The notes below the pieces were generated by a model. That model saw nothing but the letters and a program-made list of their open reading frames with translations, made no database searches and was not told the origin of the DNA. A DNA stretch of 64,000 nt from Ruminococcus sp. (lineage in GTDB: Bacteria; Bacillota; Clostridia; Oscillospirales; Acutalibacteraceae). Below are positions 2,213 through 26,388 of the stretch, in pieces. The DNA is taken from the NCBI GenBank assembly GCA_017411835.1, contig JAFQPG010000004.1, positions 93,453 through 157,452 of the forward strand, in the 5' to 3' direction. How positions within the stretch are numbered: position 1 is the stretch's first letter; each line of letters begins with the position of its first letter. A program made the position numbers and the translations under genes.

Positions 2213-3055
2213 TTAAATTTCTATGCTTTGATGTCTGCACGCGTGACAGCAGATATTTACCGCTACAGGAATAGACGCTATATGTGTCGGTGCATATTCA
2301 ATATTTACTGAAAGTGCGGTTGTCTTTCCGCCGAGACCTGCCGGGCCAATACCCATTTCGTTGATTTTTAAAAGCAATTCTTCTTCAAGCTTTTTATATC
2401 TTTCGTCAGCATTTGAGTCGTCTATGCTTCTGAATGTTGCCTTTTTTGCAAGCTGTGCACTCTGCTCGAATGTGCCGCCTATACCAACACCGACCACAAT
2501 CGGCGGACAAGGGTTAGGCCCTGCTTGTCTTACAACTTCAAGCACGAAATCTTTTACACCCTCAACTCCCGCAGACGGAGAAAGCATCTTGATTTTTGAC
2601 ATATTCTCGCTTCCAAAGCCTTTGCAACCTGCGGTGATTCTAATCACATCGCCTGAAACTATCTTTGTATGCACAACAGCAGGAGTATTGTCGCTAGTAT
2701 TTTTTCTATCAAAAACAGGGTCGCAAACAACCGATTTCCTTAAAAAGCCTTCGTCGTACGCTTCTTTTACACCCTGATTAATAGCATCAGAAAAATCGCC
2801 ATCAACTACAACCTTGTCGCCGTATTCTACAAAAAGCACCGCCATACCGGTATCCTGACAAATAGCTATCTGCTCTTTTTTCGCAATGCGGTTATTTTCA
2901 AGCAACTGTTCTATTACCGATTTTGCGGTAGCGCTTTGCTCAATTTTCAGCGCATTATTAAGCGCGTTTGTTATATCATCACCAATGTTGCAGTTAAGAC
3001 TTATGAACATCTTTTTTACTGCATCTTTGATGTCCTGTGCTTTTATAACTCTCAT
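2213..3055 (-). CDS. fumA: Fumarate hydratase class I, alpha subunit
   Basis: The 280-residue alpha subunit carries the three cysteine motifs expected to bind the catalytic [4Fe-4S] cluster: QDTGMAV preceded by IC, the TAGCKGFGSENMS segment, and GPNPCPPIVVGVGIGG. It is first in the fumarase operon and has a promoter at 3074-3102. The cluster type is oxygen-sensitive, consistent with an anaerobe. The start is ATG at 3055, after AGAGGTGAC. Confidence 0.85.
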   Translation of the reverse strand: MRVIKAQDIKDAVKKMFISLNCNIGDDITNALNNALKIEQSATAKSVIEQLLENNRIAKKEQIAICQDTGMAVLFVEYGDKVVVDGDFSDAINQGVKEAYDEGFLRKSVVCDPVFDRKNTSDNTPAVVHTKIVSGDVIRITAGCKGFGSENMSKIKMLSPSAGVEGVKDFVLEVVRQAGPNPCPPIVVGVGIGGTFEQSAQLAKKATFRSIDDSNADERYKKLEEELLLKINEMGIGPAGLGGKTTALSVNIEYAPTHIASIPVAVNICCHACRHQSIEI

Positions 3056-3073
3056 AAAGTCACCTCTGTTAAC

Positions 3074-3102
3074 AGTATAAAATATTTTTCAGGATATTTC
3101 AA
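3074..3102 (-). promoter_or_regulatory. Promoter of the fumarase operon
   Basis: On the minus strand TTGAAA, a 17-base spacer and TATACT lie just upstream of the alpha-subunit gene. The same hexamer pair with the same spacing drives the mreB operon at 17439-17467. Confidence 0.65.
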
Positions 3103-3209
3103 TATGCGAGTATTTGTGATATTATATGTGTGTTCAAATTTTTATTTTATTTTCAACATAAAGCTGTCACATTCAGATTATACACTAAACGTGTAAAGGA
3201 GGCGTATAT

Positions 3210-3878
3210 ATGAGCAAGCTACTTATAGTTGATGATGAATTTCGAATTAGAGAACTTATAAAAAAGTACGCGATATATGAAGGCTATCAGGTAAGTGAAG
3301 CAGAAAACGGAATAGAGGCTGTAAACTTATGCAAAACAAACCAGTTTGACCTTATCGTTATGGATATTATGATGCCACAGCTCGATGGATTTTCTGCGGT
3401 TGAACAAATCAGAAAGAGTGAAAATACCCCGATTATTATGCTTTCAGCTTTAGGCGAGGAGTATGACCGTATAAAGGGTTTTGAGCTCGGTGTTGACGAC
3501 TATGTAGTAAAGCCGTTTTCACCTAAGGAGCTGATGCTTCGAATAAACGCAGTAATAAAACGCTGTAGCAAATCAGAAAATACCGACCGATTTATATACA
3601 AAGGTTTGTGTGTTGATTTTTCCGCACGCACTGTCGAAATAAACGGCGAGCGAATCAATATGACTCCAAAGGAATATGATTTGTTCTTCTTTATGGTGAA
3701 AAACAAAGGTCTTGCACTAACCCGAGAAACGCTCATAAGCAAGGTATGGGGATATGACTTTTTCGGCGATGACAGAACCCTTGACACACACATCAAGTTG
3801 CTTCGAAAAAGCCTTAAAGAGTACGCAGGGCTTGTAGTAACGCTACGAGGGGTGGGATATCGTTTTGAAACAGATTAA
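3210..3878 (+). CDS. OmpR-family response regulator
   Basis: The 222-residue protein has a receiver domain (residues 1 to about 118) with acidic DDE near the start, the phospho-accepting Asp52 in VMDIMMP and the Lys in VVKPF. A winged-helix DNA-binding domain follows (about 128-222), with the typical DRTLDTHIKLLRKSL and RGVGYRF. It overlaps the partner kinase gene by 14 bases, so the pair forms one two-component operon. AAAGGAGG precedes the ATG. Its target is unknown; the next gene downstream, after a terminator, is a dockerin protein with its own promoter. Confidence 0.9.
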   Translation: MSKLLIVDDEFRIRELIKKYAIYEGYQVSEAENGIEAVNLCKTNQFDLIVMDIMMPQLDGFSAVEQIRKSENTPIIMLSALGEEYDRIKGFELGVDDYVVKPFSPKELMLRINAVIKRCSKSENTDRFIYKGLCVDFSARTVEINGERINMTPKEYDLFFFMVKNKGLALTRETLISKVWGYDFFGDDRTLDTHIKLLRKSLKEYAGLVVTLRGVGYRFETD

Positions 3879-5466: not shown

Positions 5467-6462
5467 ATGAAAAAACCAGTTTGCTTGTTTTTAAGCCTTC
5501 TTTTGCTTTGCTCTGCATTTTGCTTTAGCGCTTTTGCAGAAGAGGAAATCGGTACTTCTCTTAACTACGAAATCCAAGAGGACAATACCGCAATCATCAC
5601 TTTTTTTGACAGCCTTAATAGTGAATTTGTTATACCAAGTGAAATTGACGGACATACCGTCACCGCAATAGGCAAAAAAGCTTTTAGGGAAAGCCACAAC
5701 CTTGCTAAGGTTACTATTCCCGATACCGTTACTACCATCTGTGACCAAGCGTTTGACAGGTGTGGTAAACTGACTACAGTAAATCTTGGAAGTGGCGTTA
5801 AATCTATAGGCTATAAAGCCTTTGCTGAATGTAAGGTTCTTTATAAAATTAATTTTCCAGAGGGACTGAATACAATCGGTAATAACGCATTTGTCCGTTG
5901 TCAGGGACTTGAAAGCATTGTGCTTCCTGCGTCTTTAACTTCTATCGGTAATAATGCTTTTTCCGACTGCGTAAGACTAAAAAGTGTTACCTTTGGCAAT
6001 GCTCAGTTGAGTATCGGAGAGCTTGCATTTGGCTGGTGTCTTAAGCTTCAAAGCGTAACCTTAGGAGATAAGGTGCAATCAATCGGCGACCGCGCTTTTT
6101 ACGCTTGCGATGCTTTAAGAAGTTTTACTATCGAAAACCCTGAATGCGTTATTTACAATAACTCAGAAACTATCCCAAGCGACTCAACAATTAACGGCTA
6201 CAGAAATTCTACCGCAAAAGCTTATGCCGATAAATACGAAAAAACCTTTGTCGCTTTAGACCCTCTTAAACTTGGTGATGTTGATATGGATTCAAATATC
6301 ACCGTACTTGATGCTACTGCTATCCAAAAGCACTTAGCATCCATCGTTACTCTTACGTCTGACCAACTTTCAGTTTCTGATGCTGACAAAGATGGAGAGC
6401 TCACTGTAATTGATGCGACAAAAATTCAGCAATTTGTTGCTGAACTCATAGAAGAGCTATAA
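5467..6462 (+). CDS. Secreted leucine-rich-repeat (BspA-type) protein with dockerin-like tail
   Basis: The 331-residue protein has a signal peptide (1-24, ending FSAFA). About seven BspA-type (LRR_5) repeats follow, recognisable by recurring IGxxAF, LxxVxxPxxVxxIGxxAFxxC patterns (about 50-235). Two dockerin-like repeats end the protein (about 265-331; DVDMDSNITVLDATAIQ and DADKDGELTVIDATKIQ). BspA-type repeats commonly mediate adhesion or protein-protein contacts, and the dockerin would anchor the protein through a cohesin; both roles are inferred. It has its own consensus promoter and a terminator shared with aspS, so it is monocistronic. Confidence 0.85.
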   Translation: MKKPVCLFLSLLLLCSAFCFSAFAEEEIGTSLNYEIQEDNTAIITFFDSLNSEFVIPSEIDGHTVTAIGKKAFRESHNLAKVTIPDTVTTICDQAFDRCGKLTTVNLGSGVKSIGYKAFAECKVLYKINFPEGLNTIGNNAFVRCQGLESIVLPASLTSIGNNAFSDCVRLKSVTFGNAQLSIGELAFGWCLKLQSVTLGDKVQSIGDRAFYACDALRSFTIENPECVIYNNSETIPSDSTINGYRNSTAKAYADKYEKTFVALDPLKLGDVDMDSNITVLDATAIQKHLASIVTLTSDQLSVSDADKDGELTVIDATKIQQFVAELIEEL

Positions 6463-9772: not shown

Positions 9773-11221
9773 ATGAAAAAAATAGTAAGTGCTTTGCTGG
9801 CTTTAATATTACTGGTCAGCATTTGTGTCATCCCTGCAAACGCTTTGATGGTGACACAATCAACAATTGAAAAAGCCATTAACTGGGCGATAGATACCGC
9901 AAACGACGACTCCCACGGCTACTCACAGCTCAACCGATGGGGCAACCCTGACTATGATTGCGCATCTTTTGTTATATGTGCATACAGATATGCAGGCTTT
10001 GAGCTTACAAATGCCGTCCATTGCGGAAATATGAAAGACGAATTCGTTAAAGAGGGCTTTGAGTGGATACCAAACACCAAAATTGACCTTAGCACATCAA
10101 AGTATTTAAAACCCGGTGATATACTTTTAAGACTTAGCGGTCACACCGAAATTTATATTGGCAACAATACACAGGTCGGTGCCCACGAAGGTACTATCGA
10201 CGACTACGATGTAAATGACCCGGGTGACAGCACAGGCTATGAAATCTGTCCTGTAAAATACTCCAACAACTCTAACTGGAGCGGTATTTTAAGATATCCT
10301 GTTGACCCACCTGTCGATATCGGCACAGGCTTTTACGGGTATATTATGAACAATGCTACACAAAAATATCTGACAAATGACAACCCAAACGTTTCTGTTC
10401 GCTCTCTTTTAGGCGATGGCATGTCAAATCAGGTATGGAAATTCGAGCGACAAACTGACGGCTCGTATGTTATTCGCTCCTGCGCAGACAACAAGGTGCT
10501 GAATGTTTCATATTCGGGCACAACTCCTGATACAAATGTCGGCGTATATAAAAATGCAAATTATCCGTCGCGAAGATGGTTTTTCTATGGCAAGGCAGAT
10601 AACTACCGCATTAAACCTAAGCTTGCCGACCTTGCATTGCATATAAAAAAGGGTACGGTAGACTCTCCCGACGGAACGAACGTGTGTTTGTGGGATATCA
10701 AAAACACCAACAAGCAGACTTTTAAAATCATTCCTGTCAGCACCCCTGACAGCACATACGTTCAGGTAGCTGAGGGTACATCAAGCAAGCCTACTTCACT
10801 TTACTGGAATATGACGCTTAATACCAAGACCTACGATGTACTTATTTACAAGGACGGTATTACAGACGGTGAGCTGTATCTTGAATTTAAAGACCTTTAT
10901 GATACATACTGTCTTGTTGACCTGCCTGCAGGCGAGTACGAAGTCTACGTGATTTCCAGAAACAGCTTCAGCCAGACCGATAGTATGAACAGCGTCGCGT
11001 TCACTATCGAAGAAGACGGTGAGGGACTTTTAGGTGATGTCGACTGCGACAAAGAGGTTTCCGTAATTGATGCCACAAAAATCCAGCTGTTCCTTGCACA
11101 GCGCACCAGCCTGTCTCAAAACCAACAGGCGTTAGGTGATGTGGATAAAGACGGCAGTTTATCCGTAATTGACTCAAGCATTATTCAAAAATATATTGCC
11201 GGCATAATCGAAACGCTTTAA
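9773..11221 (+). CDS. Secreted NlpC/P60-like cysteine peptidase with ricin-type lectin and dockerin-like domains
   Basis: The 482-residue protein has a signal peptide (1-24). The N-terminal domain (about 28-178) resembles NlpC/P60-type or phage-lysin amidase folds: likely nucleophile Cys63 in YDCASFV, His124 in GHTEIYIG, and a polar third residue near His138. A ricin-type beta-trefoil follows (about 182-325, with YLTNDN, NQVWKFE and TFKI), then a beta-rich module (about 330-410), and two dockerin-like repeats (about 415-482; GDVDCDKEVSVIDATKIQ and GDVDKDGSLSVIDSS). It probably cleaves peptides of cell walls or other glycoconjugates outside the cell, with sugar binding by the lectin. Substrate and cohesin partner are unknown. 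Confidence 0.8.
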   Translation: MKKIVSALLALILLVSICVIPANALMVTQSTIEKAINWAIDTANDDSHGYSQLNRWGNPDYDCASFVICAYRYAGFELTNAVHCGNMKDEFVKEGFEWIPNTKIDLSTSKYLKPGDILLRLSGHTEIYIGNNTQVGAHEGTIDDYDVNDPGDSTGYEICPVKYSNNSNWSGILRYPVDPPVDIGTGFYGYIMNNATQKYLTNDNPNVSVRSLLGDGMSNQVWKFERQTDGSYVIRSCADNKVLNVSYSGTTPDTNVGVYKNANYPSRRWFFYGKADNYRIKPKLADLALHIKKGTVDSPDGTNVCLWDIKNTNKQTFKIIPVSTPDSTYVQVAEGTSSKPTSLYWNMTLNTKTYDVLIYKDGITDGELYLEFKDLYDTYCLVDLPAGEYEVYVISRNSFSQTDSMNSVAFTIEEDGEGLLGDVDCDKEVSVIDATKIQLFLAQRTSLSQNQQALGDVDKDGSLSVIDSSIIQKYIAGIIETL

Positions 11222-20245: not shown

Positions 20246-20899
20246 TTAGTCCTTTTTGTCTTCAAACAGGCTGTACTGACGCACTGGGGTATAGCCCTTT
20301 TTTTCATTTTTCTGCTCCATATGGCGCTGTCTAAACGGGTTTATATGTTCGTGGTTGTGGCGTTTTTTCTCGCTTTTTGGGGTGTTCATTTGTGGTGCAG
20401 GCTCCGCCTTTACAGGTGCAGAAATTTCTACCTGTTCTTTTTCTTCTATATCAAAAGAAAGGTCATCCTCAGCGCTGATTTCAACAGGCTGTGTTTTTTC
20501 AACTACTTCCTGTTTGAGCTCTTCTTTTTCTTTGATTTCGACACTGGTTGCAACCATTGTTTTTTTAGACGATAAAAGCTCGCTGTTTTGTGCTTCGAGC
20601 TTTTCGATTTTTGCTTTCAGCTCTTCGTTTTCTGCACGAAGCTTTGCGCTGTCCTCGATGTAATCTTTAACCTGCTCTTTTACCTGAGCCAGAGCTTGTT
20701 TAGCTTTAGCCTCATCGTCACAAAAATCGAGTGCCGCCATAATCGCGCAACGCTCTTTTGACATATTAGTGCTTGTGAAAAGCGAGTTGATAACGGTATC
20801 AACCTTGTTTGCTATGTCATTAACATATTTTTCTGACTCTGTCGTGATAAGTGTGAGCTTTTGAGAAGCAACAAATACAGTAATTTTATTTTTTTCCAT
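20246..20899 (-). CDS. zapA: Cell-division protein ZapA with extended coiled-coil tail
   Basis: The 217-residue protein has a ZapA domain (about 1-95; KITVFVASQKLTL, YVNDIANKVDTVINSL) that bundles FtsZ filaments, then a coiled coil (about 85-125) and a charged, Pro/Glu/Lys-rich tail of about 90 residues. Typical ZapA is near 90-100 residues, so the tail is an extension. Pairing with a U32 gene is common in clostridia. Confidence 0.85.
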   Translation of the reverse strand: MEKNKITVFVASQKLTLITTESEKYVNDIANKVDTVINSLFTSTNMSKERCAIMAALDFCDDEAKAKQALAQVKEQVKDYIEDSAKLRAENEELKAKIEKLEAQNSELLSSKKTMVATSVEIKEKEELKQEVVEKTQPVEISAEDDLSFDIEEKEQVEISAPVKAEPAPQMNTPKSEKKRHNHEHINPFRQRHMEQKNEKKGYTPVRQYSLFEDKKD

Positions 20900-20933
20900 A
20901 ATAGCACCTCAATAAAGATTTTTTACCGAATAA

Positions 20934-20963
20934 ATTATATAACAAAAGATGGAAGTTCTACAA
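20934..20963 (-). promoter_or_regulatory. Promoter of zapA-U32 operon
   Basis: Minus-strand TTGTAG, 18 bases, perfect TATAAT, about 35 bases before the zapA ATG. Confidence 0.6.
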
Positions 20964-21011
20964 GCATTACTAAAGCATTGTAATATTTGCAAAACAAATG
21001 TTACCCATAAT

Positions 21012-21043
21012 AAACCCCCGACGAAATTAATCGTCGGGGGTTT
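21012..21043 (-). terminator. Terminator of sigma operon 1
   Basis: The perfect 13-bp stem AAACCCCCGACGA (21012-21024) / TCGTCGGGGGTTT (21031-21043) lies downstream of the dockerin gene ending at 21072. Confidence 0.85.
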
Positions 21044-21071
21044 GCGTGTTTAGGCTTATATTAAACTCGAT

Positions 21072-22337
21072 TTATTTTTGTGCAATTTTATACTGAATAG
21101 CAGTAGCATCTAAAATATTAACCGATTTATCGCGGTTAAAGTCGCTACCTAAATCTAGACGTGTAACTCGTTTTTTTGCCTCAACGAGCTGAATTTCAGT
21201 TGCATCAAGCACAGACAGTTCGCCGTCTAAATCTGCATCGCCAAATGGTATCCCGATTTCATATTTTTCTATACATTCTTGAATAAATGGATAATCACCG
21301 TTAAGTGTATATTCAATAGGAATAAATTTATCGTTTTCTATATCATACAATGCGTAGCAATAATAGAAAGGATAGCAAATCTGAGGATTTTCGATATATC
21401 TTGTGCCCAAGTCGAGAAATGTCATAGCGTCTGAGCCAATAGCTATACGAGAATAAATCACGGCATAGTCCATCCCGTCATCTGCATCAACATCTATTTG
21501 TCCAAGCTCTGTGTAGGTCAATTCTCCCGCCTTTTCAACATCTTCTAACTCATACTGTTTTAGCAATCTGTCTTTATATATATCCTCTTCCTGATTAACT
21601 TCATAACCTGTATTGTCAAAATACGAAACGCTTCTTACAATACCGCAACTTGCGATTTTTTTGATATCACTTGCTTTTACTGACACGATAACAATGCCAC
21701 TACCGACAAATACTTCTTCATACTCTATGCCGTCAAATACGACGGGTACCATTTCTGTATTATACCAGTTACTGTAAAACAGCTTAAGTTCTACTCTTGC
21801 TGCTGATTTATTTGGCCAGCTTGGCATTGCAGTCGCATTTGGATGATAGCCCTCTGTTGATATATCAATACAAATCTTCTTATCAGGGGAGCTATTTTCG
21901 ACTAGTTCCTGTAGCTGTGCTGATAATTTGCTATCAAATTGAAGCTCATCGAATGTTGAAATAATAGCTAAATCGCTGTCGTCGATTATTCCGTTTTCAT
22001 AAGCATATTTTATTTCATAAAGCTGTCCGTTTGTAAAAATCTGTGGTAGTGGTCGACTTGGTGCGTATAGTCTGTAATGTCCGATAGTCTGTTTTACTAC
22101 ATCATCAGGATATGCACAGCCGCTAACTTCTAATCGCACAAGATATTTATCACCATTTATGTGTAAATTATAGTAAAGATGAATGTCACTTTTTTCTATA
22201 TTATCTAAGCCCGCATAATCTACTCTGACAGCTTCTAAAAGCTCGTCGCTTATAGCAAAGTCTTCTGCATATATTGCTGTAGTGCTGATGCTAATAAGCA
22301 TCACAAGTGCTAATATTAATGCTAATGTTTTTTTCAT
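21072..22337 (-). CDS. Secreted protein with dockerin-like tail, encoded in sigma operon 1
   Basis: The 421-residue product has a signal peptide (1-24, ending STTAIYA) and a body of about 340 residues with no family I recognise. The tail has two dockerin-like repeats (about 366-421; GDADLDGELSVLDATEIQ, and a weaker second copy with SDFNRDKSVNILDATAIQ in which the first loop position is altered). It follows the membrane anti-sigma gene by 13 bases and ends at a strong terminator, so it is the third gene of the operon. Its production may therefore be tied to the signal sensed by the sigma system; that is inference. Confidence 0.75.
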   Translation of the reverse strand: MKKTLALILALVMLISISTTAIYAEDFAISDELLEAVRVDYAGLDNIEKSDIHLYYNLHINGDKYLVRLEVSGCAYPDDVVKQTIGHYRLYAPSRPLPQIFTNGQLYEIKYAYENGIIDDSDLAIISTFDELQFDSKLSAQLQELVENSSPDKKICIDISTEGYHPNATAMPSWPNKSAARVELKLFYSNWYNTEMVPVVFDGIEYEEVFVGSGIVIVSVKASDIKKIASCGIVRSVSYFDNTGYEVNQEEDIYKDRLLKQYELEDVEKAGELTYTELGQIDVDADDGMDYAVIYSRIAIGSDAMTFLDLGTRYIENPQICYPFYYCYALYDIENDKFIPIEYTLNGDYPFIQECIEKYEIGIPFGDADLDGELSVLDATEIQLVEAKKRVTRLDLGSDFNRDKSVNILDATAIQYKIAQK

Positions 22338-22350
22338 AAAAACGCCTCCT

Positions 22351-23199
22351 TTATTTACTCACGCTAAATATGCTTGTATAAAGTTGAGTACCATTTTCAT
22401 TTACAAAATAGTACCTGTACTTTCCCGGTTTTAGCAGCAGGCCTGAATTCTCCATATTGTAGCTGAGATATACATCCCGATCGGACTGATCTTGCGGTGT
22501 GTAATATATTTCAATATCGGCTTCAAATTTTGGCACATACAAATTACCCGACCAAGTAGGTGAGCCTGTTCTATATTCATAAATTGAACAGTAAACGTTG
22601 CCACTACCGGTAAGGCATGAATCTTTTGTAAAACCTTCGAGTACTATACCCGACAAGTTACCATAGTCGCCTTCTGCTCCCGGTGCGTCTGTTTCACCCT
22701 CCGGTCCATCGGGTAATACAGAGCCGTTTGGATTTGAAGGCTGTCCAGACGGATCTTCAATTGGTTCTGACTGAGGTTTTTTTGTTGGTGTAACTTTTTC
22801 TGTTTGAGCTTGTGTTGGAGAATCTGTGCTTTTTTCTGTGCTCTCTGTAAGCAAATTTGTTTTGCTTTCCCGTGTTGGAGTTTGTGTTTCAATTTTTTCT
22901 GTAGCATCAGTATTGTTTTCAGCCTCTGTTTTTGTAGTCTCATCATACTGACTGCTGTTTGTTTGCTCGGTTGGGTTGTTCGAAGCTATCGGTAGTATGT
23001 CATTGCTGTTTTTAAAGAAAAGGGGAGATAAACAAACAACGCATACTACAAGCAAGATAGCAACGGCAGAAATAACTCTGCGAAAGTTTATAAAAACTAC
23101 GGGGGATTTTTCTTTTATTTTTGGAACATCAAGAGCAGAGTCTACCCAGCTTTGTGGAATGTCAAGATTTTTTAATTTATCAAAGTTAAATTCACTCAT
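22351..23199 (-). CDS. Candidate membrane anti-sigma factor 1 with Pro/Thr-rich stalk
   Basis: The 282-residue single-pass protein has a cytoplasmic N-terminus (1 to about 38) with IPQSWVDSALDVP, one membrane helix (about 41-62), a Thr/Glu/Gln/Pro-rich stalk (about 68-165) and an extracellular domain of about 115 residues ending YRYYFVNENG. Its ATG overlaps the sigma gene stop by four bases, the usual arrangement for a sigma factor and its inhibitor. The zinc-type HxxxCxxC motif is absent, so this is not a standard ZAS anti-sigma. The paralogue at 23826 shares the N-terminal PQxWxDSxL motif, membrane helix position and stalk. The anti-sigma role is inferred from context. Confidence 0.65.
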   Translation of the reverse strand: MSEFNFDKLKNLDIPQSWVDSALDVPKIKEKSPVVFINFRRVISAVAILLVVCVVCLSPLFFKNSNDILPIASNNPTEQTNSSQYDETTKTEAENNTDATEKIETQTPTRESKTNLLTESTEKSTDSPTQAQTEKVTPTKKPQSEPIEDPSGQPSNPNGSVLPDGPEGETDAPGAEGDYGNLSGIVLEGFTKDSCLTGSGNVYCSIYEYRTGSPTWSGNLYVPKFEADIEIYYTPQDQSDRDVYLSYNMENSGLLLKPGKYRYYFVNENGTQLYTSIFSVSK

Positions 23200-23681
23200 T
23201 CTCCATCACCTCCATAAAGCTTTTTAAGTTTTTCTTTTCCGCGACGCAGTAAAGTTTTAATCGTGTTTGGAGATTTGTCTAAAATCTGAGCAATCTCATT
23301 GATTTTGTAATCTTCAGCGTAGTGAAGATAGAGCACCTCGCGGTATTTTTTCTCAAGGTTTAGCAACGCCCACGACATATCGCATTTTCCCTGCGGAAAA
23401 TCTACTGCACCATCGCTTACTTTATCTAACTCTGCGTGGTGGCGGTTTTTTCGTATGTACTTATTGCACTCATTAATCGCAACGCGTATCAACCACGCTT
23501 TTAAATGGGCTTCATCGTTGAAATCGGGAGCATTTCGATACAATTTGAAGAAGGTATTTTGGAAGCAATCTTCTGCATCTGCCCAGTTTTTCAGTCGCAT
23601 AAGGCATACTGCACCAACAGTATTTTTGTACTTGTTGATAACTTGCTCGTAGCTAAGTCCAAGAAAAACCGCATCGCCCAT
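23196..23681 (-). CDS. ECF sigma factor 1
   Basis: The 161-residue protein has sigma region 2 (about 10-75; NWADAEDCFQNTFFKLYRN, HLKAWLIRVAINECNKYIRKN) and region 4 (about 100-155; KYREVLYLHYAEDYKINEIAQIL, SPNTIKTLLRRGKEKLKKLYG) with a short linker, as in extracytoplasmic-function sigma factors. A strong GAAGGGGG ribosome site precedes the ATG. The TGAAAC element at 23727 suggests autoregulation. Confidence 0.9.
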   Translation of the reverse strand: MGDAVFLGLSYEQVINKYKNTVGAVCLMRLKNWADAEDCFQNTFFKLYRNAPDFNDEAHLKAWLIRVAINECNKYIRKNRHHAELDKVSDGAVDFPQGKCDMSWALLNLEKKYREVLYLHYAEDYKINEIAQILDKSPNTIKTLLRRGKEKLKKLYGGDGE

Positions 23682-23726
23682 TTATTAACCCCCTTCACTA
23701 ATAAAATCCTTTTACCCATGTAAAAG

Positions 23727-23732
23727 GTTTCA
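23727..23732 (-). promoter_or_regulatory. ECF-type -35 element, sigma operon 1
   Basis: On the minus strand TGAAAC is followed by CTTT, matching the TGAAACnTTT -35 pattern of Bacillus SigW-like ECF promoters. It lies 45 bases before the sigma ATG; the second sigma operon has the same element 43 bases before its ATG. It also overlaps an inverted repeat CCTTTTAC-ATGG-GTAAAAGG (23709-23728). No clear -10 is visible. Confidence 0.45.
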
Positions 23733-23769
23733 GCTTATAAAAATATTTTACTATATTTTTGAAAATAAA

Positions 23770-23805
23770 AAAGCCTGACGACAAAATTTCGTCAGGCTTT
23801 TTAGG
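23770..23805 (-). terminator. Terminator of sigma operon 2
   Basis: The perfect 12-bp stem AAAGCCTGACGA (23770-23781) / TCGTCAGGCTTT (23789-23800) has T runs on both sides. Confidence 0.85.
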
Positions 23806-23825
23806 TTTTTCTTAATCTGAGCTGT

Positions 23826-24761
23826 TTAAGGCTCTAGATAATGGTTTAGACTTCTTGCTACTATCTCACCTTTGCTGTTATAAAAATAGAACGAATATGT
23901 GTCCGCCTTTTTTATCAGATTGTGCTGATAAGGATAGTATTTAGCATAAACACGCGTGTTACTTATAATTGAATAACTAGCAAGATGCTCTGAAGAATAC
24001 AAATTCGTATCCCCGACAAGTCTGCCGCTTGAATCGACCACCTTACAATAAACCTTTTTGTTTGATGTAAGCAAGCTCTCATTAAATCCAACGTGAACAT
24101 ATACGTTGTAATTATTAACCGTAGGTTTTACAGTTGGTGTTGCGGTCGGTTCTATCGGCTCCCACGGCTCTATTGGTTCCCACGGTTTTTCAGTTGGTTC
24201 TATTGGTTCAATCGGATCTGTCGGATTTGAAGGTGTCCAAGGATCTTCATCTGTTGGTTCAGACGCCTCGGTAGGATCCGGTTGAGTGCTTGGAGGCTTT
24301 GACGGTTTTTGTGTTTCATTAGGCTTGGTCGAATTTGACGGCTTTGAGTCTGCAGGCTTTTTGGTTGGTTTTTGAGACTCTAAAGCTGTTTCTTCGCTTT
24401 TGTCAGTCGGGAAGACCGTTTCAAAAGCTGAAGACTGTGTCGACTGCGTTTCGTCAGAATTCGAAGTTTCGCCTGCTTTTGTAGGCTCTTTTTCATTTGT
24501 AGCGTCTAGGGTACCATTAAGACTTGCTGTGCTTTCGGTGTTTGCCACCGGCGGTACTGCATCATCATTCATCATAAAGAACAAAAATACAGACAGCGAT
24601 ACTACGAGCACAAAGCTAGCTACAGCAGCAAGAATTTTGTTAAATTTAAATAAAACTACAGGAGGGTTGCTTTTTTCGGTGCTTGGAATGCTAAGTACGG
24701 AGTCGAGCCATTCCTGGGGCACTTCGAATTTTGAGATGCTGTTGAAATTCTTTTCACTCAT
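23826..24761 (-). CDS. Candidate membrane anti-sigma factor 2 with Pro-rich stalk
   Basis: The 311-residue single-pass protein is a paralogue of the product at 22351: cytoplasmic start with VPQEWLDSVLSIP, membrane helix (about 43-64), then a stalk (about 70-205) with Thr/Ser/Glu/Pro-rich and WEPIEP repeats, and an extracellular domain of about 100 residues ending YSFYFYNSKG. The stalk resembles wall-spanning linkers. Its ATG overlaps the sigma gene stop by four bases. No HxxxCxxC zinc motif is present. No extra gene follows before the terminator, unlike operon 1. Confidence 0.65.
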   Translation of the reverse strand: MSEKNFNSISKFEVPQEWLDSVLSIPSTEKSNPPVVLFKFNKILAAVASFVLVVSLSVFLFFMMNDDAVPPVANTESTASLNGTLDATNEKEPTKAGETSNSDETQSTQSSAFETVFPTDKSEETALESQKPTKKPADSKPSNSTKPNETQKPSKPPSTQPDPTEASEPTDEDPWTPSNPTDPIEPIEPTEKPWEPIEPWEPIEPTATPTVKPTVNNYNVYVHVGFNESLLTSNKKVYCKVVDSSGRLVGDTNLYSSEHLASYSIISNTRVYAKYYPYQHNLIKKADTYSFYFYNSKGEIVARSLNHYLEP

Positions 24762-25246
24762 ACGTCATCACCTCCGTAAATGCTCTTTAACTTTTCTATT
24801 CCTCTTTTGAGCAGAGTTCTGACAGTATTAGGATTTTTGCCTATAATCTTTGCAATTTCATTTGAATTATATTGTTCACAATATTTTAAGTAAACAACAT
24901 CTCTGTATTTTGGGTCGAGTTTTACAAGTGCCCACGAAATATCGCTTTCGTCATCGGTAGGGAAATTAATGGCGTTATTTTCTACCTGTGAAAGAGGGAC
25001 GGTACGATTATATGTACGACGACAGTTATTGCATTCGTTGATTGCAACCCTGATAAGCCACGCTTTTAGATGATTTTCGTCATTGAAGTCGGGGGACTTT
25101 TGATATAGCTTTAAAAACGTGTTTTGGAAGCAATCTTGCGCGTCTGCGTGGTTTTGAATGTGCATAACACAGACTGATGCAATAGTCTGAAAGTACTTTT
25201 GCACTACTTGTTCAAACTCAAGCCCTGCATAAAGAACATCCGCCAT
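24758..25246 (-). CDS. ECF sigma factor 2
   Basis: The 162-residue ECF sigma factor is clearly paralogous to that at 23196 (shared NHADAQDCFQNTFLKLYQ-like region 2 and DPKYRDVVYLKYCEQYNSNEIAKII region 4). Region 4 ends PNTVRTLLKRGIEKLKSIYGG. AAGGGGGG precedes the ATG, the same unusual all-G ribosome site as sigma 1. Two neighbouring paralogous modules point to a local tandem duplication followed by divergence, mainly in the extracellular parts. Confidence 0.9.
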   Translation of the reverse strand: MADVLYAGLEFEQVVQKYFQTIASVCVMHIQNHADAQDCFQNTFLKLYQKSPDFNDENHLKAWLIRVAINECNNCRRTYNRTVPLSQVENNAINFPTDDESDISWALVKLDPKYRDVVYLKYCEQYNSNEIAKIIGKNPNTVRTLLKRGIEKLKSIYGGDDV

Positions 25247-25289
25247 ATAATCCCCCCTTCATATATAAAACACATAAGTTGCACAAAGT

Positions 25290-25295
25290 GTTTCA
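25290..25295 (-). promoter_or_regulatory. ECF-type -35 element, sigma operon 2
   Basis: Minus-strand TGAAAC followed by ACTTT, 43 bases before the ATG of the second sigma gene, parallels the element at 23727. The -10 is not recognisable. Confidence 0.45.
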
Positions 25296-25316
25296 TTTTT
25301 TTTAAATTTTATCAAA

Positions 25317-25347
25317 AAAAGCCACAGCTATAAAAACTATGGCTTTT
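25317..25347 (-). terminator. Terminator of the ATP-grasp gene
   Basis: On the minus strand AAAAGCCATAG pairs with CTGTGGCTTTT (one T-G wobble) and is followed by a T run. Confidence 0.75.
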
Positions 25348-25356
25348 ATTATGTAA

Positions 25357-26388
25357 TTATTTAATTTTTCTGTATGGTGTAATTTTCTGTTTGAAAAGGT
25401 CTTCAAAATAAGGCAGAATACCGAGTCTGTCCGGAGTAAGCTCCGGAAGCTGCCAGAAATAGTAGTCAGGATAGTCGTTTGCTTCGATGATACCAGGTCC
25501 GTTTTCGCCGATGTAGCAGTCCCAACCGACAAATTTAACGTCCGGTGTATCAAGCGCTGCTTTAAAACAAAGCTCAACAGCCTCCTTAAACATAGGAATT
25601 TCGAAATCCTCGAAAACTACGCCTGTGCGTGGATGCTCGGTGTAGAGCTGTCTGTGCTCGGTACGACCGGTTTTAATCAGCTTACCTGTTTCTTTATCAA
25701 CAGGAATATTGATACCGTCAAAACCTAAGTTATCTACAAAGTGACCGCCGTTACCTGCTTTACACGCAGCGTAAACAAGGTGAGGCACTCCGTCTACTAC
25801 GATAGTCTGCATTCTTACACAGTTTACAGACTCAGGGTGTAGGGAAGCCATCTTAGGATGCTGCTTTGCAACCTCTTCGACAACACCGAAGTTCTTTTCC
25901 TTGCAGTAATTATAAATAGCTTCAATGCTTTCAAAGTCAGTTTTCTTAAGCTTTTCAATACCGCGACCTGAATCAAGACCGTCAGGCTTACAGAAAAGAT
26001 AGTCTTTATCTTCGCAGAATTTTTCAAATTCCGCAAAAGTACCTCTTTCCATATCAAACCAGTCTCTGCCTAAATATTTTGAGTATCTGCGGTTGAAACG
26101 ACTCTTGTAGTGGAGCTCATCAGAAACGCTCTGGTCGTTGCATTTCATAATGATTTTTTTATTTAAAACACGTGTGACGTAAGTCTTACGCATTTTAGCG
26201 TTGATATTATAAAACTGAAAAATATCGTAGTCATTGTAGCCTGCACCGTAGCGGATAGCACAGTTAAGTATGTCAAAGAAAGTTTTGATTTTACTTTGAC
26301 CTGACTGCTCTTTTACAGTGTTGAGTACCTTCGAAATCTTTGAAAATCTAACACCTGAAAGTACTCTTAAAATATAAATTTCGCCCAT
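25357..26388 (-). CDS. Sugar-transfer-associated ATP-grasp protein
   Basis: The 343-residue protein matches the ATP-grasp family often found in polysaccharide gene clusters: FCKPDGLDSGRGIEKL as the nucleotide-binding segment, HPESVNCVRMQT, and the metal- and ATP-binding WDCYIGENGPGIIEANDYPD. ATP-grasp enzymes join a carboxylate to an amine or thiol using ATP; the actual substrates of this subfamily are unknown. It is not in a polysaccharide cluster here. It has its own terminator and lies 41 bases after the preceding lipoprotein gene. Confidence 0.75.
   Translation of the reverse strand: MGEIYILRVLSGVRFSKISKVLNTVKEQSGQSKIKTFFDILNCAIRYGAGYNDYDIFQFYNINAKMRKTYVTRVLNKKIIMKCNDQSVSDELHYKSRFNRRYSKYLGRDWFDMERGTFAEFEKFCEDKDYLFCKPDGLDSGRGIEKLKKTDFESIEAIYNYCKEKNFGVVEEVAKQHPKMASLHPESVNCVRMQTIVVDGVPHLVYAACKAGNGGHFVDNLGFDGINIPVDKETGKLIKTGRTEHRQLYTEHPRTGVVFEDFEIPMFKEAVELCFKAALDTPDVKFVGWDCYIGENGPGIIEANDYPDYYFWQLPELTPDRLGILPYFEDLFKQKITPYRKIK

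Follow-up and report, generated by a model that had tools for sequence, protein, structure and literature searches.

SigI/RsgI systems are autoregulated, and sigma24C is a sigma factor like those of the extracytoplasmic function (ECF) type; to our knowledge, SigI lacks a region 4 of the Sigma70_r4_2 type. In Acetivibrio (Clostridium) thermocellum, several paralogous SigI/RsgI pairs with an extracellular biomass sensor are described as controlling cellulosome genes (PMC12203970, PMC11557425, PMC3990059). Beside them stands sigma24C/Rsi24C (Cthe_1470/1471), a pair of sigma factor and membrane anti-sigma factor that carries a GH5-like module (PMC3990059). The Bacillus pair RsiV/SigV (ECF30, DUF4179) is reported to join an ECF sigma factor to a membrane anti-sigma factor that acts as the receptor for lysozyme (PMC6066255), and Sas20 of the Ruminococcus bromii amylosome is presented as a secreted starch-binding protein, not as a receptor (PMC9112005). 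Here we analyze two adjacent ECF sigma/membrane protein modules, one of them followed by a dockerin gene, in a 64,000-nucleotide stretch (the window) of a Ruminococcus sp. genome (GCA_017411835.1, contig JAFQPG010000004.1, positions 93,453 to 157,452).

Each module is probably an ECF sigma switch that controls its own expression as well as subsets of dockerin genes. The gene order and its conservation, as well as the promoter and its link to dockerin genes in four genomes, are established. The modules would work like SigI/RsgI but are not members of that system, since their sigma factors are of ECF type and no RsgI_M domain was found. As with SigI/RsgI, several paralogous sigma/membrane pairs occur per genome; unlike SigI/RsgI, the operon usually includes a dockerin gene and the modules were not seen outside the genus in the genomes sampled. 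Compared to sigma24C/Rsi24C, which is a single pair with a GH5 module and for which the available text of PMC3990059 mentions no dockerin partner, the outer domain here is small. The modules resemble RsiV/SigV in pairing an ECF sigma factor with a membrane protein and differ in that DUF4179 was not found.

Five open reading frames (ORFs) on the minus strand form the two units, at the positions that the initial annotation gave. The parts of the locus are the following:

24758..25246, minus strand: ECF sigma factor of module 2 (162 aa), assigned by its ORF and family profile matches
23826..24761, minus strand: membrane protein of module 2, the anti-sigma candidate, 311 aa, with a short cytoplasmic N-terminus, a single transmembrane segment, a Pro/Thr-rich stalk and a C-terminal domain
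23826..24128, minus strand: extracellular domain of module 2, the last 100 residues (first row of alignment A4)
25266..25295, minus strand (own genome G000:C2:118718-118747): putative autoregulatory ECF promoter of module 2 (TGAAACACTTTGTGCAACTTATGTGTTTTA), from pattern search and weight matrix
23768..23802, no strand assigned: terminator-like inverted repeat separating both modules
23703..23732, minus strand (own genome G000:C2:117155-117184): putative autoregulatory ECF promoter of module 1 (TGAAACCTTTTACATGGGTAAAAGGATTTT), from pattern search and weight matrix
23196..23681, minus strand: ECF sigma factor of module 1 (161 aa), assigned by its ORF and family profile matches
22351..23199, minus strand: membrane protein of module 1, a single-pass anti-sigma candidate, 282 aa
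22351..22653, minus strand: extracellular domain of module 1, the last 100 residues
21072..22337, minus strand: secreted dockerin protein, third gene of module 1, 421 aa, with a signal peptide (by eye) and two C-terminal dockerin-like repeats

The two sigma/membrane pairs proposed by the initial annotation were borne out. Both pairs overlap by four bases (ATGA), and the sigma factors scored 86.7 and 88.3 bits against NCBIfam sigma70-ECF (TIGR02937, cut-off 42.9). Pfam Sigma70_r2 and Sigma70_r4_2 also exceeded their cut-offs in both, and ECF models headed the NCBIfam matches (among the best 25 of 112 and of 91). In the region 20900-25400, eight terminator-like sites were seen, compared to 3.4 in shuffles.

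Upstream of the sigma genes lies the sequence TG[AC]AACC-AAA, followed after 17-19 bases by the hexamer GT[AT]TTA and then by a purine-rich ribosome site. A script located this promoter (TG[AC]AAC...GT[AT]TTA) ahead of 50 of 69 sigma genes, and several of the 19 misses do carry it, an earlier start codon having been picked. When a stricter pattern was scanned in 18 module-bearing genomes, matches were obtained in 13. We fetched all 36 non-module matches of the four richest genomes, and the next ORF was a dockerin gene at 24 of them (9/12 in G100, 6/8 in G084, 5/9 in G070 and 4/7 in G115); one more of the 36 lies ahead of an ECF sigma gene. These four genomes are 1.5-2.0 Mb in size and hold 68-86 dockerin places each (E 0.05), or a few percent of genes if one gene per kilobase is assumed. 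In contrast, reversing the pattern yielded 17 places across ten genomes, and no dockerin ORF lay beside any of them in either direction. It is this difference, together with the promoter ahead of the sigma genes, that makes the modules look like autoregulated switches of some of the dockerin genes.

Among the 24 target proteins, Pfam Dockerin_1 was matched in 18 (E 0.01), PKD in three, and LRR, beta-lactamase-like and CBM26 domains in one each. In G100, G084 and G070, the genomes covered by our comparison of promoter signatures (G115 was left out), five of the 20 dockerin-target promoters were identical at the compared positions to one module promoter of the same genome; the remaining 15 differed from the nearest module promoter by 1-5 positions, one of them with a tie. 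Over 49 modules, the distance between sigma factors correlated with that between promoters (r 0.63, 0/2000 permutations as high), common descent not having been removed from this correlation.

One other explanation for the shared promoters is that the pairs control only themselves, and that dockerin adjacency and promoter similarity reflect duplicated operons that later lost their sigma genes. Promoter similarity could indeed come along with a duplicated dockerin gene, and 14 of the 18 genomes have no convincing stand-alone target. The four rich genomes, however, keep their promoters about 30-165 bases upstream of varied dockerin genes, which loss without selection would not explain, and we regard this history as highly unlikely.

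In the own genome, a looser pattern gave 11 matches, compared to five for its reversed form: four are the module promoters, two lie just ahead of stand-alone dockerin genes (L209:3895-4572 and L210:3491-5044), one is at the start of rplJ and four are elsewhere. A weight matrix trained on 46 promoters from other genomes and applied to 214 own ORFs placed these two stand-alone dockerin genes, as well as the dockerin gene L209:1346-3574, among the best. Four own weight-matrix matches of at least 10 bits were taken as chance: rplJ, L211, the dockerin gene L236 and one within a module gene of L010. The rplJ-like start, which the pattern overlaps at L210:6443-6472 (minus strand), was set aside as probably outside the regulon; a like sequence occurs in five other genomes. 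The notion that the regulon comprises all dockerin genes was rejected for the own genome, as the weight-matrix enrichment was not significant.

Elsewhere, the promoter pattern precedes another ECF sigma gene at L247:397 (plus strand), a possible sigma cascade. In two genomes (L255 and L271) it lies ahead of related small non-dockerin proteins, which are possible further members of the regulon.

The genes that follow the membrane-protein genes were counted in 60 regions fetched at the best-scoring places and in the own loci, which together gave 71 such genes. This count covers places down to about E 1e-10, and worse ones where they lay within a fetched region; loci L069-L137, which are partly on the same contigs as the fetched regions, are outside it. 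The next gene encoded a dockerin protein in 46 of the 71 cases, another sigma factor in three and something else in 12, and was not found in 10. One of the last, L166, does have a dockerin ORF with a Sas20d1-like domain, which the script missed. The dockerin profile was built from seven own-genome segments, and because four of these seeds are module dockerins, the Pfam count is the more independent test: Dockerin_1 (E 0.01) was found in 44 of 57 distinct downstream proteins, a set that does not include the window dockerin. The initial annotation assigned a dockerin protein to the first operon, and the two repeats can be seen by eye; it is not special to that operon, as a dockerin gene is the usual third gene of the module.

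The window dockerin itself (21072-22337) scored 12.7 bits against Dockerin_1 (cut-off 22.9, E 0.15) and showed a single repeat at E 0.008 when the own genome alone was searched. Its dockerin part is also among the seeds of the dockerin profile used for the downstream genes. It was assigned chiefly by two D-x-D-x-D...DATxIQ repeats recognized by eye. Its gene is followed by a zapA-like gene (window 20246-20899, minus strand). Since ZapA proteins also come after modules in L152 and L159, the tandem site is conserved; two of the 57 downstream proteins are ZapA without dockerin. The window holds three more dockerin places, all on the plus strand (883-1038, 6271-6435 and 11030-11197), and their genes are not among the weight-matrix matches shown.

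The other downstream proteins and domains in the Pfam search include LRR, PKD, one serpin (E 1e-76) and four Fervidolysin prodomain-like matches. The last two are protease-inhibitor-like and fit the idea that the modules answer cell-envelope or host-defence stress, much as RsiV does for lysozyme, with dockerins as just one component of a protective response at the surface; in Firmicutes, ECF anti-sigma factors of the RsiV type are reported (PMC6066255). However, most downstream proteins and 24 of the 36 non-module promoter matches in the four genomes concern dockerin proteins, and DUF4179 was not found in the four own membrane proteins. A stress response of this kind is unlikely. Among the loci, L011:2145-2951 (minus strand) encodes a dockerin protein with two Fervidolysin prodomain-like segments, that is, protease-inhibitor-like cargo.

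The own genome is 1.72 Mb long and 99 percent complete, and a profile search of it found four paralogous modules. In modules 1, 3 and 4 a dockerin gene is immediately downstream, while module 2 is followed by module 1. As there are four such modules in the genome and many in the genus, the window arrangement is not due to chance. A fifth own ECF/anti-sigma pair, L038:1001-2376 (plus strand), is of another kind, with a weak N-terminal profile match, a membrane protein without a Pfam match and no dockerin gene after it in the fetched stretch; it was left out of the module counts. Cohesin was matched at two places in the own genome, and dockerin at 43 (E up to 10), of which 37 reach E 0.001. One cluster, L012 (G000:C1:82000-90000), contains a cohesin ORF (2816-3766, Pfam E 1.1e-5), along with two surface proteins rich in repeats and a further two proteins that carry a Sas20d1-like domain. 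At L013:2809-7253 (plus strand) an amylase-like protein (by eye) carries dockerin repeats and CBM26-like modules; the neighbouring ORF has a cohesin match in the genome search, one missing from the Pfam result for the full-length ORF, and the two form an amylosome-like pair.

Across the genus, the N-terminal profile of the membrane proteins was matched at E 0.01 in 59 of 100 genomes, the own genome included. At E 1e-5, 48 of the 99 other genus genomes were counted by hand as module-bearing. Dockerin candidates per genome had a median of 83 with modules (n=48) and 49 without (n=51; Mann-Whitney p 1.8e-6), a comparison of first-look candidates that is not corrected for genome quality. The relatives with public names are mostly Ruminococcus metagenome-assembled genomes (MAGs), among them several obtained from the guts of goats and roe deer. 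When one genome per genus was searched across the family (60 genomes), nothing better than E 0.009 was found outside the genus; weaker matches up to E 0.1 in 18 other family genomes were taken as chance.

The membrane proteins could not be assigned to a known family. Neither window protein had a Pfam or NCBIfam match above cut-off, and likewise the other two own-genome paralogues had none in Pfam. RsgI_M (PF23750) was not matched in the window proteins at E up to 1 or in the other two at E up to 0.1, and at the same limits DUF4179 was not among the Pfam matches. A profile search of the N-termini, which the initial annotation had proposed, gave nothing credible in the Protein Data Bank (PDB). 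When the N-terminus was compared with those of 15 other ECF anti-sigma factors, the score was 92.6 with the membrane segment and 6.6 without it, and the apparent kinship was dropped.

The other features claimed for these proteins could be followed through 69 distinct ones, the window pair included. Each has exactly one hydrophobic segment, as expected of single-pass proteins, and HxxxCxxC, reported missing from both window proteins, was found by script in none of the 69. The PQxWxDSxL motif is present in the two window proteins (IPQSWVDSAL and VPQEWLDSVL) but is not general: it is too narrow for a family marker, and even the looser PxxWxxxx[LMIV] within the first 30 residues occurs in 42 of the 69. 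The exact 4-base overlap of sigma and membrane genes was seen in 39 of 69. Class I anti-sigma factors (ASDI) are described as having an N-terminal domain of four helices (PMC7406223); their zinc motif, Hx3Cx2C, is frequent yet not obligatory. With the membrane segment starting at median residue 37, there is little room here for such a four-helix domain.

The initial annotation saw in the modules a separate, SigI/RsgI-like regulator of extracellular complexes with a different sigma class. Dockerin genes, as operon partners and as promoter-sharing targets in four genomes, favor that view, and the likeness to RsgI is closer than had been stated. Among the nearest sigma relatives outside the genus, at 38-43 percent identity, the three that were scanned (L115, L116 and L121, from Lachnospiraceae-type MAGs) pair with RsgI_M anti-sigma factors (E 1e-23 to 1e-27). 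Those anti-sigma factors share the short N-terminus before one membrane segment and differ by their RsgI_M central domain. At L118, L120 and L122, where identity is alike, the sigma gene is followed by other proteins, with no obvious anti-sigma gene next to it.

Several observations weigh against a switch for dockerin genes. In the 14 genomes other than the four module-rich ones, only one of seven fetched non-module matches precedes a dockerin ORF, and that one is intragenic. There were 14 such matches in all; of the seven left unfetched, five resemble the rplJ start (in G075, G094, G103, G142 and G151) and the others are G096:C3:131885 and G155:C9:22701. In the own genome, the weight matrix at 10 bits or more was matched ahead of 4 of 37 dockerin ORFs and 7 of 177 others (Fisher p 0.10), the seven including the four module sigma genes, and the difference was weaker at lower thresholds. 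Since the matrix does not single out dockerin genes, most of those in the own genome lie outside the regulon. Modules were absent at E <=1e-5 from 51 of the 99 other genus genomes, while dockerin matches were present in all 100. Finally, without its membrane segment the N-terminus scored lower against other ECF anti-sigma N-termini (6.6) than the best of 60 shuffles (18.2).

The last 100 residues of the membrane proteins form one domain, aligned over 53 rows, for which profile searches gave nothing credible in Pfam or PDB. In 10,123 ORFs the domain was found in anti-sigma proteins and pieces of them, in a dockerin protein at L155 (with a copy in L090) and, weakly, in Sas20d1-like proteins (E 6.5e-4 to 0.16). 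One of the Sas20d1-like proteins encoded in the own cohesin cluster has a match to PDB 7RAW/7RFT (E 5e-21), structures given as the Sas20 starch-binding domain (PMC9112005). Compared by hhalign, the sensor domain scored 92.5 with 15 Sas20d1-like rows (69.5-95.0 in half-samples) and 81.1 when that set was cut down to the four rows from the cohesin cluster. Controls scored at most 1.9 (reversed, 39 shuffled sets, CBM26-like, PKD, cohesin, prodomain, dockerin and sigma); the CBM26 comparison, whose set had been expanded from one CBM26-like segment picked by eye, gave 0.7. Sas20d1-like domains occur together with dockerin repeats in the operon partners L166 and L167 and in the promoter-bearing genes L209, L239, L251 and L253.

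An order-wide search of 196 other genomes gave two matches of the extracellular domain, a pilin-like protein and the sensor of a histidine kinase, L297 (E 9e-5 per genome). As both of these outside-genus matches fell below E 1e-4 per genome, the E-values of the profile are too good. Alone, L297 scored 90.3 over 46 columns in hhalign, and single rows of alignment A4 weakly match dCache_1 and other sensor families (best E 0.018), as would be the case if the domain were a Cache/PAS-like small-molecule sensor and not a carbohydrate-binding sandwich. On the other hand, a roughly cut 13-row set of 12 dCache_1 matches and L297 scored 0.4, L297 was picked as a best match among the 196 genomes, and the other such match is pilin-like. 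We consider a Cache/PAS-like sensor improbable. From sequence comparison, a distant relationship of the outer domain to the Sas20d1 fold, which binds starch, is possible; with L297 scoring almost as well, the link to starch is suggestive only.

If the modules are switches for dockerin genes, the membrane protein would be the anti-sigma factor, its short N-terminus holding the sigma factor inactive, with the C-terminal domain displayed outside the cell on the Pro/Thr-rich stalk. When the outer domain meets its signal, which would probably be a glycan, with alpha-glucan as the first candidate, the sigma factor would be freed, perhaps by proteolysis as described for RsgI and RsiV (PMC12203970, PMC6066255). 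The freed sigma factor would transcribe its own operon, which encodes the sigma factor, the anti-sigma factor and in most cases a dockerin protein. In some species at least, it would also switch on further dockerin genes with a matching promoter. Parallel paralogous modules with differing promoter signatures would thus let different signals load different cargo on the cohesin scaffold.

The downstream protein at L155 (5259-5843, plus strand) has a signal peptide, dockerin repeats and the anti-sigma factor's own extracellular domain (E 3e-23), and the anti-sigma gene is just upstream. It raises another possibility, in which the dockerin protein encoded in the operon belongs to the sensor. Docked on the surface scaffold, it would meet the anti-sigma domain or compete with it, and the cell would thereby sense what state its own complex is in; the parallel modules would be insulated promoter codes for scaffold cargo. 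We think this distinctly unlikely.

No published description of such sigma switches was found for gut Ruminococcus, in literature without most subscription papers. As far as these searches tell, the kind of system is known, while the family, its sensor and the dockerin operon have not been described previously. RsgI receptors are reported only for Acetivibrio-type cellulosomes in the text available to us (PMC11557425). The control of dockerin complexes in ruminococci has apparently not been described. An ECF system present in several copies, each with a promoter signature that can be read, would make the regulon and the signal of each sensor directly testable, and it would suggest that sigma/anti-sigma control of surface complexes arose with more than one sigma class.

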